DNA from: Muribaculaceae bacterium
Lineage (GTDB): Bacteria; Bacteroidota; Bacteroidia; Bacteroidales; Muribaculaceae
Direction: 5' to 3'
Assembly: GCA_017621225.1 (NCBI GenBank)
Contig: JAGATN010000013.1
Coordinates: 1 to 64,000 of the forward strand
DNA: 64,000 nt
The first letter of the stretch is position 1. Every line of letters begins with the position of its first letter. This document shows positions 6,479-50,249 of the stretch, one piece after another. The notes beneath the pieces are model-generated. The model ran no database searches, was not told where the DNA came from, and saw only the letters and a list, made by a program, of their open reading frames with translations. The position numbers and the translations under genes are program-made.

Positions 6479-6854
6479 ATTTAGAAATAATTTAAGTTTG
6501 TTTCAAGGCTCTCATAAAAAGAGCCAAGGCATTAAAGCACAGCGCACCGTCAAAATCATTCACTATATTATGTGCGATTTGAACCATTCATAAAGAATGC
6601 CCCATATACGCTGTATTTGGCAAAGTTACAATAAAAAAAAATATTACCATATCTCTCATTACTATAAGGAGCTATTTATGGACTCCAAAAATTTGACAAC
6701 ACTAATCAACTATGACCACCACACACCCAATAATCATTGCACCCGATACAATGGCAAACCACTATACCGAGTGCAACAATATCAATCGTTCCGAGACGAC
6801 ATAGAAATTACACGGTCAGAAAAACATATCGCTCATTAGGAATTTTTCAGAGCT
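6479..6854. other. intergenic region between regulator and barrel gene
   Basis: A 376-nt gene-free stretch. An 80-codon open frame on the plus strand (6597-6839) has no signal peptide, no recognisable domain and unusual composition, so I treat it as chance. The only structure I see is the 47-nt repeat copy at 6740-6786. Confidence 0.6.
6740..6786. repeat. 47-nt intergenic repeat, copy B
   Basis: This is similar to 1961-2007 (shared CACCCG-TAC-ATG-CAAA and ATACCGAG-GCAACAATATCA). It sits about 70 nt beyond the 3' end of the outer-membrane barrel gene. Its hairpin potential is weaker than that of copy A, with two mismatches. Both copies lie downstream of genes, which fits a 3' untranslated or terminator-associated element. 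Confidence 0.5.
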
Positions 6855-7682
6855 TTAGAAAGCGTAACCTAAACGCAGTTGGAAATTGTTTGAAAAATAG
6901 TTTCCTTGCTCCCGTTTATCGCCCTTCTTTCCACCAATGGAAATTATCTCATCACCACCTTCATAGATAGGAATAAATCCACGTTGCCATGTTAAATCAA
7001 TATTGAAACGACCGAACCAATATCCAACGCCAACATTTATTCCCACATCATATTTACGCATAACGTCAATATCTCCTATTTTGACCTTGTCTTCATCTTC
7101 TTTGAAGTCATTGCGGTTGCCATATTTAGACGTAGATACTATATGGTCGGTTGTATGCGTCTTATAATTTCCTGCAAAATCATAGTTTGCATATGCCCCT
7201 ATATGGACATCTGCAGCCATACGTTGGAGGAATGTGTACTTATAACCTATCGTAATAGGTGAAAATTGCACATTATAACTTGAAAGCGTTTCTTGTATTG
7301 TCTTCTTATGGTAGTCATGACCACCTGAGACTTGACTCGTACCAGAGCGCACCCATTCAGCATTCGTTTTGTAACCTCTCATTCCGAGGTCGAGAGCCAT
7401 ACCCCAATAAAGAGGATGAGTGCCGAACGATTTGTTAAAGCCAAAAGATACAACATAGCCTGGAGTCGTTTTGAAACTTCCGTTCCAGTCACCTTTGTCC
7501 CAAATTGCCTCTTGTGTTTCTTTTGCGTTACCAGCAACACCATTAAAACCGATTCCAGCTCGTAGAATCCACACTGTTTTTCCCGAATTAAAGTTAGGGA
7601 GTTCAAGCGTTTCCCCTAATTCCCTTCCATACATTGCCGTTAACGACAATAGGAGCGATAGAAAACATACCAGTTTCTTCAT
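6855..7682 (-). CDS. outer-membrane beta-barrel protein behind structured RNA leader
   Basis: A 275-residue protein with a signal peptide (about 1-19, MKKLVCFLSLLLSLTAMYG) and a small beta-barrel typical of porin-family or outer-membrane proteins in Bacteroidota. It has repeated amphipathic strands (ITIGYKYTF, VGVGYWFGRFNIDLTW) and ends in the aromatic motif LRLGYAF expected of barrel proteins. Probably 8-10 strands. No transported ligand can be named. The ATG lies 20 nt after a long structured RNA element with its own promoter, so the gene has a 5' leader of about 250 nt. Its base composition is more AT-rich than the housekeeping genes further along. Confidence 0.85.
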   Translation of the reverse strand: MKKLVCFLSLLLSLTAMYGRELGETLELPNFNSGKTVWILRAGIGFNGVAGNAKETQEAIWDKGDWNGSFKTTPGYVVSFGFNKSFGTHPLYWGMALDLGMRGYKTNAEWVRSGTSQVSGGHDYHKKTIQETLSSYNVQFSPITIGYKYTFLQRMAADVHIGAYANYDFAGNYKTHTTDHIVSTSKYGNRNDFKEDEDKVKIGDIDVMRKYDVGINVGVGYWFGRFNIDLTWQRGFIPIYEGGDEIISIGGKKGDKREQGNYFSNNFQLRLGYAF

Positions 7683-7701: not shown

Positions 7702-7935
7702 CAGTTCCTAAAAACCGTTTAAGATGCAGAAGCGTGGAACTGTATGCCACGTCTTAAAGTGAAGGTGCTAGGAAAACCTTTGAGAACAGATGTGGGTTAA
7801 CAGCCCCACGCTATACGTGGAAACCGTCTGCCAACTCTTGTTCTCGTGGTTAAAGTTTCCTAGGCTTTTCACTTACAAGAAGAAGACATAACGCTTCTTT
7901 TTTACTAAATGTTATGACAAGGCTTCCCTTATCAA
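7702..7935 (-). ncRNA. structured RNA leader, copy 1 (unrecognised class)
   Basis: Read on the minus strand this is about 235 nt between a consensus promoter and the barrel-gene ATG. Paired segments (plus-strand coordinates) are 7728-7734 with 7892-7898, 7757-7763 with 7868-7874, 7768-7775 with 7856-7863, and 7782-7788 with 7839-7845. There is also an apical hairpin around 7808-7821. A paralogue at 49212-49452 keeps these pairs with different bases, which is covariation. Segments conserved in both copies include ACAGATGTGG, TTAACAGCCCCACG, GCCAACTCTTGT and ACAAGAAGAAGACATAACGC. Near the coding side, CAGTTCC (7702-7708) with GGAACTG (7736-7742) and CGTGG with CCACG are mutually exclusive pairings, as in a switch. 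It could be a cis-regulator or a free small RNA. Confidence 0.8.
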
Positions 7936-7938
7936 TTG

Positions 7939-7969
7939 CAAAATTACAAAATTATAGTTACATAACAAT
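7939..7969 (-). promoter_or_regulatory. promoter of structured RNA copy 1
   Basis: On the minus strand TTG (7966-7968) and TAATTTTG (7939-7946) are separated by exactly 19 nt, a consensus Bacteroidota promoter. Transcription would begin near 7933 and run through the RNA element toward the barrel gene. Confidence 0.8.
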
Positions 7970-16502: not shown

Positions 16503-16514
16503 CATCAGTTTTTC

Positions 16515-16553
16515 ATGGTATTAGATTTAAGGTATGAAGATTATTCGTCGTGA
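16515..16553 (+). other. possible 12-residue leader ORF
   Basis: An ATG about 7 nt after the predicted transcript start opens a 12-codon frame (MVLDLRYEDYSS). Its stop lies within the loop region of the following terminator hairpin, so a translating ribosome would prevent that hairpin from forming. No amino acid is strongly enriched (2 Asp, 2 Tyr, 2 Leu). It may be a leader peptide or merely part of a short RNA. Confidence 0.35.
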
Positions 16554-16572
16554 TGACGAGTAATTTTTTTTT
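16540..16572 (+). terminator. intrinsic terminator/attenuator in aspD leader
   Basis: A 10-bp stem ATTATTCGTC/GACGAGTAAT (one G-U pair) with a 5-nt loop is followed by eight T residues. It lies about 35 nt after the promoter and 200 nt before aspD, so it either ends a short RNA or controls read-through. A second hairpin (TTTTGGGG/CCCCAAAA, 16592-16620) lies just beyond it. The rest of the 16312-16775 spacer shows nothing else I can identify. Confidence 0.8.
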
Positions 16573-16775
16573 GTGTATATACCATTCCTCTTTTTGGGGG
16601 CTTTCGTCAGCGCCCCAAAATCAAACAAATGCAAAAAACCATTATATTATATGACATAGAGCAACATTCCATTCGGCGGGTTGTTTATAAGTATGAATCA
16701 GTCAGGATGTAACGACATCGAAACTGCTGACAGACAAAAGAAACAAATGATTCGTACCACCCCAAAACAACAATT

Positions 16776-45574: not shown

Positions 45575-46171
45575 ATGGATTCACAGTATTTTTCAACCTT
45601 GCGCGAATTGTTGACACGAAACAGATCGTACCGACGTTTTGATTCGTCAAAAATGGTAACGGAATGCCAACTTACCGAAATTGTAGACCTCACTCGTCTA
45701 TGCGCGTCAGGCCGCAACCTGCAACCGTTAAAATACCGCATCGTATCAACCGAAGCCGAATGCAATGCCATATTTCCGGCATTGAAATGGGCGGGATATT
45801 ATACCACTTGGGATGGCCCGTCTGAAAACGAACGTCCAACGGCATACATCGTACAATGCCTCGATACCCAATTGGCCAACGGTTGTCTGTGCGACGACGG
45901 CTTGCATCTCGAAGCCATCACGCTTGGTGCAACGGCTTTGGGATTGAACGCATGCATTATAAAATCATTCAATTCCGAAATAGTGACATCCTCGCTTTCA
46001 ATCGATGCACGATATAAACCCATATACGTCGTAGCATTAGGTTATGGAAATGAAGAAATAAAATTAGTCGATACCGATGGCTCAACAGATGCCGACATTC
46101 GTTATTATCATAACGAGAATGGCATTCACACGGTACCGAAACGTACGCTGTCAGAGATAATCATAAAATAA
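45575..46171 (+). CDS. nitroreductase family protein
   Basis: About 198 residues from the ATG at 45575 (MDSQYFSTLREL). A promoter box at 45539-45546 rules out the upstream ATG at 45512. The FMN-binding fold is indicated by NRSYRRFDSSKMV, ARYKPIYVVALGYGNEE and the GLNACIIKSF segment. Members reduce nitro compounds or quinones with NAD(P)H, but the substrate is not predictable. The stop codon overlaps the start of the next gene by 1 nt (TAATG), so the two should be translationally coupled, a pairing that may be informative for the unknown neighbour. Confidence 0.88.
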   Translation: MDSQYFSTLRELLTRNRSYRRFDSSKMVTECQLTEIVDLTRLCASGRNLQPLKYRIVSTEAECNAIFPALKWAGYYTTWDGPSENERPTAYIVQCLDTQLANGCLCDDGLHLEAITLGATALGLNACIIKSFNSEIVTSSLSIDARYKPIYVVALGYGNEEIKLVDTDGSTDADIRYYHNENGIHTVPKRTLSEIIIK

Positions 46172-47241
46172 TGGGCACAATCCATCTATTCAATCCCGAA
46201 AACGATCTTGCCCTTGCCTTTGGCAAAAAACACTTCACCGCGCCTGCCGCCGCAATGGCCCTACACCGCGCCGGTGCACTGCTACCTATGTGGTGGGCCG
46301 AATCAAACGACTTGATATTGGCTACTAACGATCAGGCCGACGACGTTGAATTTCTTAAATCAAGATTCGGACTGAACGGACAGATCGCCACATCACAAAA
46401 CATACGCTCAGTCACCAAAGCTTCGCCATGGGGATGGAGCGAAGATGCGGTAGCCCAATTAAGGGCCATCGGAACGCCCGGCGAAATACTTCCCGACAAA
46501 GATTCAATCAACATAATCCGCAATCTGAGTCATCGGCGACTGACAAGAGAAGTCCTGAAACGAATGAACGTACCGGAACGTTTATTGCCCATAGAATTTA
46601 CCGATCCCCAAAAAGCCATTGCGCACATAGCGTCAAACCCGAATTCATTTATGAAGCTCCCTTGGTCAAGTAGCGGAAGGGGCATATTACAATGCAACAA
46701 AATGCCGCGCAAACAAATCGAAAACTATGCGTCGGGCATAATAAGACGTCAAGGCAGCCTAATGATCGAACCTGAGTACGACAAGCAAAAAGATTTTGCA
46801 GCATTATTCGCATGCAATCGAGACCGCCTGCAATTCAAAGCATTATCGGCATTCGCCACAAACGATCACAATGCCTACGACGGCAACATCATAATGTCTG
46901 ACAATCGCATCATAGATTGGCTTGGAACCGATCCGATGCCATGGATCGAACGTTTGCAAAATGCACTTGAGCCACTGCTACTGAATAAATATGAAGGATG
47001 GTTAGGCATCGACATGCTTACATATACGTTGCCATCCGACGGAAAGCTCCAGATTGCGCCCTGCATCGAAATAAATCTGCGCACAACCATGGGCGTAGTA
47101 TCCTACCATCTCCGACAAAAATTAGCGCTGTCGAACCGTCCGGCCATTTTCAGAATAGGACGCACCGCACCCCCAATCGAATCGACATTAATATTACCGC
47201 CACGCGACGGATTCTTCTTCAGCATCCAGCCTATTGCCTAA
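46171..47241 (+). CDS. ATP-grasp-like protein of unknown function
   Basis: A 356-residue cytoplasmic protein that begins IHLFNPENDLALAFGKKHF, a start I associate with a Bacteroidota conserved hypothetical family. Two stretches look like an ATP-grasp fold: FMKLPWSSSGRGI at about 150-165 (lysine plus glycine-rich loop) and a late CIEINLRTTMG (about 295), which resembles the metal-binding E-x-N motif. No cofactor or substrate can be named. Possible roles include ligation of amino acids or peptides. Tight coupling to the upstream nitroreductase suggests a joint pathway. Confidence 0.75.
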   Translation: MGTIHLFNPENDLALAFGKKHFTAPAAAMALHRAGALLPMWWAESNDLILATNDQADDVEFLKSRFGLNGQIATSQNIRSVTKASPWGWSEDAVAQLRAIGTPGEILPDKDSINIIRNLSHRRLTREVLKRMNVPERLLPIEFTDPQKAIAHIASNPNSFMKLPWSSSGRGILQCNKMPRKQIENYASGIIRRQGSLMIEPEYDKQKDFAALFACNRDRLQFKALSAFATNDHNAYDGNIIMSDNRIIDWLGTDPMPWIERLQNALEPLLLNKYEGWLGIDMLTYTLPSDGKLQIAPCIEINLRTTMGVVSYHLRQKLALSNRPAIFRIGRTAPPIESTLILPPRDGFFFSIQPIA

Positions 47242-47293
47242 CCCATATCGCACAACCAAAACGGCACTGATAATATCACGAATGTACTATGGT

Positions 47294-48010
47294 TCAACCA
47301 TTGGAATCCGCATTATTTTGTTTTATCATTGCAACAAAAGAATCTAAGTCAAGTTCCAATGTTCGGTTATTTCTCAAAAACCACTCGATATAATTGGGGT
47401 CTTCCATAAATACCTCCCTAAAGGATTTTCCATAATATTTTCCAAATGTAATTAAATCATCTGCCTTTGTCTTAGGGAAAACTCGATTAATTTCATTCTC
47501 AATAATGCTTTGTCTATTAGGAAAATTGGGTGGAATGTTTAATAATTTATCAAAATCAACCCTGAAATAATAATCTTTATCCAATAGCCAAAATATGTAC
47601 TTAGGGTCTTGTTTATATATTTCTCTAATTGTTTTGCCCTTGTATTTTCCAAATTTCATAACAAATTTAGGTGGTCGATATGGGAATAGTTTATCCATAT
47701 CAACGCCCGGCACATCTATAAGAACCCATCCTCCACATCTGGCACAAGGTATTTCCCCATCCATTATTTCAGAGTCATATTGTTCACTATACTCGTCATT
47801 AGGAATTCCGTCAACTAAGCATTTACCATATGCTTTACCATACTTTCCGGAAGGGCGTATCCGTTCAACGATGAAAGTACGCCCTTTTTGGCTATACATA
47901 GTTTTTTCACGGTTCAAACTAACCATACCCAATTTACAGCGTTTTACCTGAAATGGCAATCTTCTTCCAATATTATGGTAGATATCGAAAATATTATCGT
48001 AGGTATACAC
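47294..48010 (-). CDS. protein with two ExoX C-terminal-like repeats
   Basis: A 238-residue protein. A possible zinc-ribbon fragment (CARCGGWV) lies near residue 90. Two copies of an ExoX C-terminal-like/DUF3820-type motif are at about residues 117-150 (MKFGKYKGKTIREI, then KYIFWLL) and about 186-220 (ITFGKYYGKSFREVF, then YIEWFL). Such motifs are found at the ends of some exonucleases and in small proteins thought to bind nucleic acid. No catalytic domain is visible. It is third in a minus-strand trio, 2 nt after the lipoprotein gene, and notably AT-rich compared with the flanking genes, which hints at transfer. Confidence 0.72.
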   Translation of the reverse strand: MYTYDNIFDIYHNIGRRLPFQVKRCKLGMVSLNREKTMYSQKGRTFIVERIRPSGKYGKAYGKCLVDGIPNDEYSEQYDSEIMDGEIPCARCGGWVLIDVPGVDMDKLFPYRPPKFVMKFGKYKGKTIREIYKQDPKYIFWLLDKDYYFRVDFDKLLNIPPNFPNRQSIIENEINRVFPKTKADDLITFGKYYGKSFREVFMEDPNYIEWFLRNNRTLELDLDSFVAMIKQNNADSNG

Positions 48011-48012
48011 AA

Positions 48013-48522
48013 CTACTCTTTTTTAGGGTCAAACAATGGTTTAAGTGCGCTTTGTATCGCTTCTCTGACATCATCTGCTTCAGTGGCGCCTTGGCCCTCA
48101 GCCGTACAAGTACAAATAGGCTGTTGCGTATATGCTGCCGTAAACTGAATTGTAACCTCAATTGAATATCCGAAATTCATATTCCTTCTACCGGTTTCTC
48201 CAAAATTCACAAGCATTGTTTCTTTTGCGTTTTTCGGATTCACCTCATTGACTTGAATAAATCCGTTTTTAAAAAGAATACCTGATATTAGGGTAGCCGG
48301 ATTTATGGATTTTGTGGTTCCACCATAAACGCCATACTGATTGCCATACACGCCGGAACTGGATGTATAGTCACCTGTTGGGGATATATAGAAGTACTTG
48401 TAATTGTTAATGGAGTCACCATAAATCTTAATAACAGGAGGGCGCAGAAATGAGCATCCGCCGAGCAAACATGCAACTATAAGCGACATTATTATGTAGT
48501 TGATTTTATAAATCCTCTCCAT
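48013..48522 (-). CDS. small lipoprotein of the AT-rich island
   Basis: The frame opens at 48573, but the ATG at 48522 (MERIYKINYIIMSLI) gives a proper lipoprotein signal with the lipobox LLGGCSF. The mature protein is about 145 residues with a Gly/Tyr-rich segment (GVYGNQYGVYGGT) and a beta-rich second half, reminiscent of DUF4136-like lipoproteins, though I cannot assign it. Its start overlaps the end of the upstream gene by 17 nt. It is probably tethered in the outer membrane. Confidence 0.7.
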   Translation of the reverse strand: MERIYKINYIIMSLIVACLLGGCSFLRPPVIKIYGDSINNYKYFYISPTGDYTSSSGVYGNQYGVYGGTTKSINPATLISGILFKNGFIQVNEVNPKNAKETMLVNFGETGRRNMNFGYSIEVTIQFTAAYTQQPICTCTAEGQGATEADDVREAIQSALKPLFDPKKE

Positions 48523-49186
48523 TAGCTTGATTATATTCGTTATCATAATACATCGTGATATAATATTCTCCATAACAGTCTGAAATAATAAACCATACAG
48601 GCTTCTTAGAAGATATCTCCATCATATATTCTAATGACATTTTCATTATATCTTCTTCTATTTCATAAGTTGGGTTTTTCAATTCTTCAGTTGTATATTT
48701 CTTCAAAACAATAGGCATTATTCGTTCTCGAAATAAAGTCGTATCCGACAACTCAGCGGCACGTTGAAAGAATACCGCTTCATATCGCTTGTTTTTAACG
48801 AGCATCTCGTATGAAATATCCTCATCATCCGCTATCAATTTATAACCTAATGGCATATATTTAGGATTCTTCTCAAACTGATGACATAGATTATTAAAAC
48901 GTATTCGTATGGAGCGTTCATCAACAGGGTTGGCATCACATACCATTATACGACAAACTTTATCTCCATTGGTAGCAATATGAACATTTACATTCGTACC
49001 ATTAAATACACCCGTCAAAACATCTTTATATTCAGAAGTCGGACGAAATCCTTTAGCCTTTAATTTACGAATAATCTCCGATTTGCTTCCATCTACCGGA
49101 ATACCAAGAAATTGCGTGACGTCCTTTTGAGCATATGCACATAAATTAACCCCCAATAGGACTAAGAATAAGATTAGATTTTTCAC
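48506..49186 (-). CDS. secreted protein behind structured RNA leader
   Basis: A 226-residue exported protein with a signal peptide (about 1-19, MKNLILFLVLLGVNLCAYAQ). The mature part starts with FLGIPVDGSKSEIIRKLKAKGF, resembling a small alpha-beta repeat used by other exported Bacteroidota proteins of unknown role. I recognise no named domain in the rest. First gene of a three-gene minus-strand unit. Its ATG is 26 nt from the second copy of the structured RNA element, the same arrangement as the barrel gene at 6855-7682. The codon use is AT-rich. Confidence 0.78.
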   Translation of the reverse strand: MKNLILFLVLLGVNLCAYAQKDVTQFLGIPVDGSKSEIIRKLKAKGFRPTSEYKDVLTGVFNGTNVNVHIATNGDKVCRIMVCDANPVDERSIRIRFNNLCHQFEKNPKYMPLGYKLIADDEDISYEMLVKNKRYEAVFFQRAAELSDTTLFRERIMPIVLKKYTTEELKNPTYEIEEDIMKMSLEYMMEISSKKPVWFIISDCYGEYYITMYYDNEYNQANGEDL

Positions 49187-49211
49187 ATTCTTACCATCTA
49201 TCTAAGCACTT

Positions 49212-49452
49212 CAGTTCCCATAGTGCCATTAAAACCAAGAAGCGTGGAACTGTAATGCCACGTCTTAGTGTGAAGGTGGTCGGAATACCTTTATAGACAG
49301 ATGTGGAAATTAACAGCCCCACGCATATGCGTGGAGACAGTTAAGCCAACTCTTGTCTATTAGTGAAATAGTTTCCGACGCTTTTCACACACAAGAAGAA
49401 GACATAACGCCTCTTATTTATCAAAATGTTGTGACGGGGACTCTACCCGGTC
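49212..49452 (-). ncRNA. structured RNA leader, copy 2 (unrecognised class)
   Basis: This is a paralogue of the element at 7702-7935, in the same orientation and relation to a gene for an exported protein. Long-range pairs (plus coordinates) are 49268-49274 with 49384-49390, 49279-49285 with 49373-49379, and 49293-49299 with 49354-49360. The bases differ from copy 1 but remain complementary: GAGAACA/TGTTCTC becomes ATAGACA/TGTCTAT, and CTAGGA/TCCTAG becomes GTCGGA/TCCGAC. A central perfect hairpin CCACGCATATGCGTGG and the alternative pairs CAGTTCC (49212-49218) with GGAACTG, and CGTGG with CCACG, are also shared. This covariation shows selection for RNA structure. The remaining 49489-49646 spacer shows nothing notable. 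Confidence 0.82.
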
Positions 49453-49457
49453 AACCG

Positions 49458-49488
49458 CAAAGTTACAACTTTTTATGATTCATACCAA
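49458..49488 (-). promoter_or_regulatory. promoter of structured RNA copy 2
   Basis: On the minus strand TTGG (49485-49488) and TAACTTTG (49458-49465) are exactly 19 nt apart, a perfect Bacteroidota promoter. Transcription would start near 49452. Confidence 0.85.
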
Positions 49489-49646
49489 TATGCCACTAAA
49501 AAATAAATTTGGTTTAATTCGGAGGAGAGATATAAATATTTTTGCTTTTCAATAACCACCGGTCGCCTCCACTTTCACCACACAAAAAGGAAAAACGAAA
49601 CGATGCCTGCGTTGTTTAAACTTAAACGATTGCCATTAAGGTTACG

Positions 49647-50249
49647 TCAAAATGATTTAAGCACATTATAAAGACAATGCAACGGAAGCCCCATTACGTT
49701 ATAAAAACTTCCATCGATACGCGACACGCCGATGCATCCGATCCATTCCTGAATACCGTATGCTCCGGCCTTGTCGAATGGATGGCACTTAGCGACGTAG
49801 CTATCTATTTCGGCATCCGTCAAATCAGCGAACTCAACTTTTGTCATCGCACTAAAACTCTCCGTGCGCACCTTATCAAACACCGCTACGCCCGTAACCA
49901 CAGTATGCGCGTGGCCCGAAAGGCTTCTCAGCATCCGGCGGGCATCGTCGGCATCGTGAGGCTTGCCCATAACGCATCCACGGTTTACGACCACGGTATC
50001 GGCAGTAACATACAAATCATCATTACCCATAAAAGGCTTATACGCTTCGGCCTTTTTCATAGCCACGTATTGAGCCACCTCCAGCGAATCGATTGACTTC
50101 GGATAACTCTCATCAACGTCGATCGAAGGCGCAATGTCGAATTTCACGCCAAGCATGCCGAGCAGTTCGCGGCGACGCGGCGACCCACTGGCAAGAACGA
50201 GCCTGTAACGTTTCAGATTTTCAAGCGGACCGGAAGCTACCATCACCAT
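49647..50249 (-). CDS. maf: Maf family nucleotide pyrophosphatase
   Basis: A 200-residue Maf/YhdE-type nucleoside triphosphate pyrophosphatase, a house-cleaning enzyme for non-canonical nucleotides (dTTP/UTP class by likely subtype). The motif LASGSPRRRELL is at residues 19-30, VDESYP follows near 44, and VTADTVVVNRG near 82 holds the catalytic aspartate. AGAYGIQEW and SFYNVMGLPL complete the family pattern. The start overlaps the KdsC-like gene by 7 nt (another ATG is 6 nt in). Last gene of a four-gene unit. Confidence 0.95.
   Translation of the reverse strand: MVMVASGPLENLKRYRLVLASGSPRRRELLGMLGVKFDIAPSIDVDESYPKSIDSLEVAQYVAMKKAEAYKPFMGNDDLYVTADTVVVNRGCVMGKPHDADDARRMLRSLSGHAHTVVTGVAVFDKVRTESFSAMTKVEFADLTDAEIDSYVAKCHPFDKAGAYGIQEWIGCIGVSRIDGSFYNVMGLPLHCLYNVLKSF

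Follow-up and report, generated by a model that had tools for sequence, protein, structure and literature searches.

What is the conserved RNA that precedes two unrelated genes on a 64,000-nucleotide (nt) stretch of DNA from a Muribaculaceae bacterium (contig JAGATN010000013.1, positions 1 to 64,000; hereafter the window), and does it control them? An earlier note on this DNA had described the element as a structured RNA in two copies, each placed in front of a gene for an exported protein. Both copies exist and align with 79% identity over 243 nt by BLAST, and the proteins encoded downstream of them are indeed unrelated by BLASTP. From sequence comparison, we consider it probable that the copy on which this study centres (copy 2) belongs to a new and widespread class of 5′ leader RNAs that act in cis and combine a sensor-like core with a pseudoknotted hairpin next to the start codon.

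Copy 2 lies on the minus strand and runs from about 49455 down to the start codon at 49186, and copy 1, on the same strand, leads into a gene whose ATG is at 7682. In each copy, a Bacteroidota-type promoter is followed by a short hairpin, a core of 171 to 177 nt and then the start codon. The cores were scored with a covariance model (R1), and the promoters of both copies and the 5′ hairpin were read from the sequence letters.

49238 to 49414, minus strand: copy 2 RNA core (R1, 166.1 bits).
7728 to 7898, minus strand: copy 1 RNA core (R1, 154.0 bits).
49458 to 49488, minus strand: copy 2 promoter of Bacteroidota type, with TTGG at 49488–49485, a 19 nt spacer and TAACTTTG at 49465–49458.
7939 to 7946, minus strand: copy 1 promoter −7 element, TAATTTTG.
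49432 to 49454, minus strand: 5′ hairpin near the presumed transcript start of copy 2.

The letters quoted in the earlier note are real but come from the plus strand, whereas promoter, gene direction and G·U pairs place the RNA itself on the minus strand; thus GACATAACGC, as given there, is the complement of GCGUUAUGUC, a conserved 5′ block of the core. The G·U pairs seen on the minus strand appear as A·C on the plus strand, and these pairs, together with the promoter, identify the minus strand as the one transcribed. Counted from the 3′ pseudoknot loop, the stated distances to the start codons, 20 nt for ATG 7682 and 26 nt for GTG 49186, are correct.

The core is a rod that helix E1 closes. 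It contains an internal pseudoknot (A) and, at its apex, the conserved hairpin D, and it resembles a sensor domain. Helices E1, E2, A, B, C, H, D, F and P7 were worked out by hand from the alignment and from distant copies. Those located in the core of copy 2 are given here with the test that bears on each.

49239 to 49413, minus strand: helix E1, GAGGCGU 49413–49407 with ACGCUUC 49245–49239, including one G·U pair (partner-swap test, pair counts).
49255 to 49405, minus strand: helix E2, AUGUC 49405–49401 with GGCAU 49259–49255 (partner-swap test, pair counts).
49351 to 49396, minus strand: pseudoknot helix A, UCUUGU 49396–49391 with ACAAGA 49356–49351 (partner-swap test, pair counts).
49268 to 49390, minus strand: helix B, part 1, GUGUGAA 49390–49384 with UUCACAC 49274–49268 (partner-swap test, pair counts).
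49279 to 49379, minus strand: helix B, part 2, GUCGGAA 49379–49373 with UUCCGAC 49285–49279 (partner-swap test, pair counts).
49293 to 49360, minus strand: helix C, AUAGAC 49360–49355 with GUCUAU 49298–49293, the last two bases overlapping A (partner-swap test, pair counts).
49319 to 49334, minus strand: apical hairpin D, CCACGC 49334–49329 with GCGUGG 49324–49319 (partner-swap test).

In the partner-swap test, the duplex energy of each sequence's own partners was compared with that of 5000 random re-pairings among 55 representatives less than 85% identical to one another (55 of 58; L021, L106 and L003 lack the apical landmark and were left out). For each of the ten helices examined, of which two are pseudoknots, a sequence's own strands pair better with each other than with strands from other sequences; the z values are −4.0 for E1, −3.6 for E2, −5.4 for A, −20.5 for B, −12.5 for C, −9.6 for H, −7.8 for D, −8.8 for F, −9.9 for the P7 stem and −5.5 for an alternative pairing, G, described below. 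Not one of the 5000 permutations was as good for E1, A, B, C, H, D, F, G or the P7 stem, and a single one was for E2; four control region pairs were null (z −0.7 to 0.1). Since these control pairs share the same ancestry, descent alone is an unlikely explanation of the pairing. In an alignment of 16 sequences, from which the structure was itself partly derived so that pair counts are biased in its favour, 93.7% of cells are paired (86.5% in helix A) versus 33–49% when the partners are slid, both partners have changed in 15 of 43 pairs, and covariation reaches 0.360 versus 0.200 in shuffles, with none of 500 as good. Folded singly, the two copies give z values of −3.2 and −2.4, one of 200 shuffles being as good in each case. 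The three helix changes quoted in the earlier note stand, and in the refined fold they fall within helices B and C. Its argument for selection on RNA structure is strengthened by the covariation among the 55 representatives, and the further homologues, in which a failure to covary was to have cost the fold its credit, do covary.

Given a core of this kind, how might it reach the gene? Two features on the 3′ side bear on this question.

49206 to 49252, minus strand: proposed expression platform, helix F and hairpin P7 (partner-swap test).
49242 to 49324, minus strand: candidate alternative pairing G, GCGUGGGGCUGU 49324–49313 with ACAGUUCCACGC 49253–49242, which competes with D, E1 and F.

In copy 2, CAGUUCC (49252–49246) pairs with the P7 loop GGAACUG (49218–49212) to form helix F, and the P7 stem consists of GCACU (49226–49222) and AGUGC (49210–49206); in copy 1, helix F joins 7742–7736 to 7708–7702 on the minus strand. 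The distance from the end of P7 to the start codon is 13 nt in copy 1 and 19 nt in copy 2. The F strand has a second partner in G, namely the 3′ strand of apical hairpin D, and F and G cannot both form in full at once; we therefore propose a switch. The variable part of G, taken alone, gives a z value of −5.7 with none of 5000 permutations as good, and F and G draw on the same strand and both covary; they might be the mutually exclusive structures that a riboswitch would have.

Under the proposed mechanism, transcription would begin at the Bacteroidota promoter, typically about 50 nt 5′ of the core of about 170 nt, and would extend across the RNA as far as the gene. The core would act as a sensor, possibly for a shared metabolite, ion or protein. 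While its 3′ strand CAGUUCC is paired with the P7 loop, the F–P7 pseudoknot would mask the ribosome landing zone, and when the same strand pairs instead with the apical hairpin (G), P7 would be freed. F and G would thus alternate in time, with translation as the presumed target and the F–P7 form as the presumed state of repression.

The element is not confined to the window. Model R1 was built from 16 cores of about 172 nt. Within the genus it has matches in 26 of 34 genomes (E up to 0.01), and within the family Muribaculaceae in 195 of 247, spread over 27 of 30 genera (E up to 0.001); it also matches 61 of 247 genomes in a draw from the order (E up to 1e-4) and 9 of 296 in a draw from the phylum, where one match is the window's own genome (8 of 295 others); each draw contains that genome, which has ten R1 matches where plain BLAST gave six. 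Named carriers include records of Muribaculum, Duncaniella, Bacteroides, Phocaeicola, Parabacteroides, Xylanibacter, Alistipes and Prevotella, and copies are present in the cultured strains Duncaniella muris DSM 103720, Phocaeicola coprophilus DSM 18228 and Bacteroides xylanisolvens XB1A. The scores of eight class-level copies are low, at 34–51 bits, but inspection by eye shows the landmarks: a closing helix in most of them, GCGTGGGCT or something close to it at the apex, and on the 3′ side a block resembling AGTTCCACGC. R1 also matched one viral contig, and DNA similarity matches include one unannotated phage record and four plasmid records, one of them over only 17% of the query. Pattern matches in Flagellimonas and Allomuricauda (L174, L198), which are invisible to the covariance model, were set aside. 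Two loci differ in form from the rest: a Rikenellaceae metagenome-assembled genome (L175:1–1500) carries five tandem RNA copies about 260–305 nt apart with a promoter motif between each, and the window's own genome holds a degenerate copy (L003:1495–1645) that lacks a gene at the usual distance.

For the comparison of individual copies, 86 of 99 and 98 of 103 model matches were used, giving 161 copies after duplicates were removed. Left out of the 99 were L077, L019, L048, L049, L050 and eight opposite-strand matches, and left out of the 103 were L177, L147, L150 and L216, cut by contig ends, and one opposite-strand match. The model search covered 99 of the 113 loci of the pattern listing, with L228–L241 (14 loci) outside it, and of the R1 matches in the genus, family and order, those with a locus were read. 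The loci sampled are the best-scoring ones, so near-consensus cores are over-represented.

Bacteroidota promoters carry the motif TAnnTTTG. This motif occurs no more than 110 nt upstream in 44 of 55 representatives, compared with a mean of 4.05 in shuffles, and the 'perfect promoter' that had been claimed for both copies stands as one of the Bacteroidota type but not as a sigma-70 promoter, none of which was found around copy 2. The interval between promoter and core is also inclined to fold (mean z −1.9 in 43 representatives), and this folding is absent from the 4 class-level copies examined. A supposedly conserved short upstream open reading frame (ORF), MSSSCV in copy 2 and MSSSCK in copy 1, was dropped by eye: L005 and L006 read MLIL and a stop, and the class-level copies differ.

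Among the 161 non-redundant copies, 157 have a downstream ORF, 1 has none and 3 have too little sequence. An ATG that opens at least 60 codons lies 40–59 nt past the core in 124 of 158 copies, on the same strand and with the RNA 5′ of the gene as in a leader, and the exceptions include L175, L003 and L257; some of the remaining copies carry short ORFs at the same distance. The mirror control, on the opposite strand past the 5′ end of 150 copies, yielded one such ATG. By a crude hydrophobicity rule for signal peptides, 114 of 142 downstream proteins pass, compared with 136 of 462 control ORFs taken from the named loci (Fisher p 2e-27), both sides being read from the first ATG with the same start rule and the same limit of at least 100 codons. 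An earlier count of 123 of 157 had used the ATG nearest 49 nt where present, a rule that favours this spacing and possibly the signal-peptide count, and both were recounted without it. The hunt for further copies and their downstream genes that the earlier note had called for thus finds them widespread and mostly before genes for exported proteins, and its view of a cis-leader serving different envelope proteins gains from the spacing, from the gene bias and from the breadth of the comparison.

The 157 downstream proteins fall into 85 BLAST families, in 65 of which at least half of the members pass the signal-peptide rule. The largest family is F1, to which the gene after copy 2 belongs. This gene and its counterpart after copy 1 are as follows.

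48506 to 49186, minus strand: gene F1, an exported protein of 226 amino acids with a GTG start codon 51 nt past the copy 2 core; no Pfam family was found for the protein.
6855 to 7682, minus strand: gene after copy 1, an exported protein of 275 amino acids with its ATG 45 nt past the core; no Pfam family was found for this protein either.

Family tables were made for 74 proteins, from 81. Among the families listed (25 of 53 from Pfam and 25 of 78 from NCBIfam) are outer-membrane barrels, S41 and trypsin-like proteases, YccF, LemA, SPFH, DUF1266 and HxsD, and PADLOC, run on the 74 proteins to look for a link to defence, reported 7 families with one member each. At one Parabacteroides distasonis replicon (L260:6001–7452), which forms an exception to the export bias, an RNA-like DNA match stops 17 nt before a DUF4433 gene. 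Elsewhere (L120:2700–6200), two RNA copies lie in a cluster-like arrangement among five small exported-protein genes that resemble genes found behind the RNA at other loci.

A number of observations count against a sensing leader that acts on translation. No pathway common to the downstream genes emerges among the families listed, and for this reason the signal cannot be guessed from them; a common signal, as had been suggested, is plausible. In the window's genome, 8 of 10 copies precede an ORF of at least 60 codons that starts within 110 nt; L003 and L257 do not, and the start distance at L025 and L255 is unusual. The five copies of the L175 array have their own promoters but neither P7 nor convincing genes, and P7 is unconvincing by eye behind the good cores of L130, L214, L084, L103, L105 and L248. 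A U-rich tract lies 3′ of E1 (60% T in 12 nt versus 24% and 39% further on), and the apical hairpin D of copy 2 is the sole terminator-like site in a terminator scan. A terminator would consist of a hairpin and then a U run, and in many copies the U tract follows E1, yet E1 is a long-range helix. Termination may take the place of translation control.

Several of these points would also suit a mainly free-standing, trans-acting RNA whose 3′ end lies at the U-rich tract behind E1, with the gene reached by read-through. We judge this unlikely: the U-rich tract, the five promoter–RNA units in tandem without convincing genes at L175 and the promoter motif upstream of most representatives agree with it, but the start codon keeps a fixed short distance, P7 sits past the tract and yet has a loop that covaries with the core, and the 85 families downstream are mostly exported. 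Copies that lack a downstream gene in the same orientation, named in the earlier note as an argument against a cis-leader, do exist (L175, L003, L257), although the great majority have such a gene. Given the tandem array, the gene-less copies and the tract, a trans-acting or terminating form may exist.

The variety of the downstream genes also raises the prospect of a constitutive translation enhancer or mRNA stabiliser that does not switch and that provides steady expression of accessory exported genes in many Bacteroidales hosts. The little use that Bacteroidota make of Shine-Dalgarno sites and the near-identical cores in different genera agree with it; two pseudoknots and the competing pairing G nevertheless exceed the apparent needs of an enhancer, and we hold this explanation to be quite improbable. 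The cis-acting leader with a sensor-like core is our preferred reading.

Does the RNA travel with its gene? The earlier note had suggested a cassette that moves with the gene, and the locus of copy 2 supports this in part.

47242 to 49646, minus strand: unit of promoter, RNA and three genes, between genes 46171–47241 (plus strand) and 49647–50249 (minus strand).
48013 to 48573, minus strand: second gene, lipoprotein-like, its product 48% identical to a protein of L081.
47294 to 48010, minus strand: third gene, with ExoX-like C-terminal domains (PF20600, 9.4e-25).

The two genes that flank the unit adjoin in at least nine relatives, where a gene that we take to be maf-like lies −24 to 127 nt from the counterpart of 46171–47241; this pairing was judged by eye from a printed N-terminal motif, and 8 of 30 loci did not parse. 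R1 finds no RNA at 29 other maf loci. Because the 2.4 kb unit stands between genes that are neighbours in relatives, the simplest account is that the leader came into the window's genome together with its operon. A relative of the second gene directly follows the RNA elsewhere (L081). Homologues of F1 have the RNA in 19 of 23 matches, or 19 of the 21 that have upstream sequence on the contig. The others comprise two cut by contig ends and two (L279, L283) with a remnant leader, in which the CAGTTCCAC strand and a P7-like hairpin are kept and the rest of the core is gone, as if the platform could outlive the core. A pattern search of 99 genomes for further core-less leaders returned 6 places, all of them known cores, and the backward control gave 0.

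Plain co-travel of RNA and gene is contradicted, however, by the many near-identical cores that precede unrelated genes, and this part of the cassette proposal falls. Where two cores share 95% identity or more, they precede different protein families in 76 pairs and the same family in 24, counted over loci with a single copy. Since the pairs are not independent and the sampling favours near-consensus cores, the effect size is uncertain. On the 3′ side of the 76 pairs, identity falls from 0.97 to background within 11–15 nt. On the 5′ side it runs 0.72, 0.58, 0.51, 0.41 and 0.36 per 5-nt step and is above background to the 45 nt measured, and gapped flank identity is 0.60 to 0.69 versus 0.57 to 0.63 for unrelated pairs. 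Sequence constraint alone is a weak explanation of such cores, because stems within one near-identical core type still show paired changes (by eye). Among 10 pairs from the L175 array, the 45 nt that follow the core exceed the core itself in likeness in 6, and the 60 nt that precede it do so in 4.

These data allow a speculative extension of the leader model, which we regard as doubtful: the core might be an exchangeable RNA module of about 170 nt and of many types, bounded by the E1 inverted repeat and copied or exchanged among promoters and genes of different genera, such that Bacteroidales would hold in common a set of typed RNA control modules serving exported proteins gained by horizontal transfer. 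Even less probable, in our view, is that the core is a recombination or transposition module, a piece of DNA exchanged between loci with the E1 ends as its inverted repeat, and that the fold serves exchange and not gene control. The 76 pairs with flanks near the level of unrelated pairs, the sharp 3′ boundary and the acquired unit in the window's genome fit this explanation, but the G·U pairs and promoter orientation suit a transcribed strand, the spacing to the gene is kept, and the sampling favours near-consensus copies in pairs that are not independent. We weight exchange lower because of the slow 5′ fading and the mixed L175 result.

Outside the RNA copies, the window contains a match to the Bacteroidetes sRNA family FopS (RF04319) at 16506–16573 on the plus strand (56.5 versus a cut-off of 56) and a 53-nt direct repeat, 81% identical, at 1953–2005 and 6732–6784.

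Muribaculaceae are a common gut family. If our preferred reading is right, a regulatory RNA has gone unrecognised in 195 of 247 sampled genomes of this family, with up to ten copies per genome; it would offer a way to learn what a dispersed set of exported proteins, most of unknown function, respond to, and would make available a portable control element of natural origin for use in gut Bacteroidales. Should the exchange of cores also be real, this would be a mobile regulatory RNA spreading separately from the genes under its control, and if the ancestries of core and gene are truly separate, regulation would have a new way to spread.

How does this RNA compare with known systems? A 2017 study reportedly lists 224 candidate RNAs. 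No credible family was found in Rfam 15, whether the whole window was searched at the gathering cut-off or the copies at E up to 5 with permissive filters, where the best scores were 15.6 and 15.9 bits versus cut-offs of 70 and 86.3. For retrons, group I and II introns, 6S RNA and T-boxes, cmscan gave no match. Integron attC cassettes also bring together a conserved folded element and small accessory genes whose function is unknown; the attC element follows each cassette's gene, whereas this RNA sits between promoter and gene on the coding strand, and no integrase search was made. The c-di-GMP riboswitches resemble it in that one RNA class precedes many unrelated, often surface-related genes, but cmscan does not match them to this RNA. 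Among the open-access papers that searches aimed at this RNA listed, none describes it in its title or the opening of its abstract, the candidate alignments of the 2017 study and of PMC8040213 lying outside the comparison, and an anonymous entry for it may exist in large candidate collections already published. Bacteroidetes motifs reported by Weinberg et al. 2010 (PMC2864571) come from the same phylum and include Bacteroidales-1, Flavo-1, Bacteroides-2 and GUCCY-hairpin; the ones that carry an Rfam number gave no match, GUCCY-hairpin is listed without a number and so is outside the Rfam comparison, and Bacteroides-2, also without one, is listed in only one sequenced organism.

The closest likeness is to riboswitches and other sensing 5′ leaders, with which this RNA shares a large, conserved, pseudoknotted fold, a position in the 5′ leader, a sensor-like core combined with a 3′ part near the start codon, and several loci per genome. 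It differs from them in that its genes are concerned with export and share no pathway, in the near-identical cores that precede unrelated genes, and in lacking an Rfam 15 match above chance level. In kind it is a structured leader RNA; with no match in Rfam 15 and no description among the open-access papers listed, the class appears to be new, and the breadth of its unrelated exported targets is unusual.
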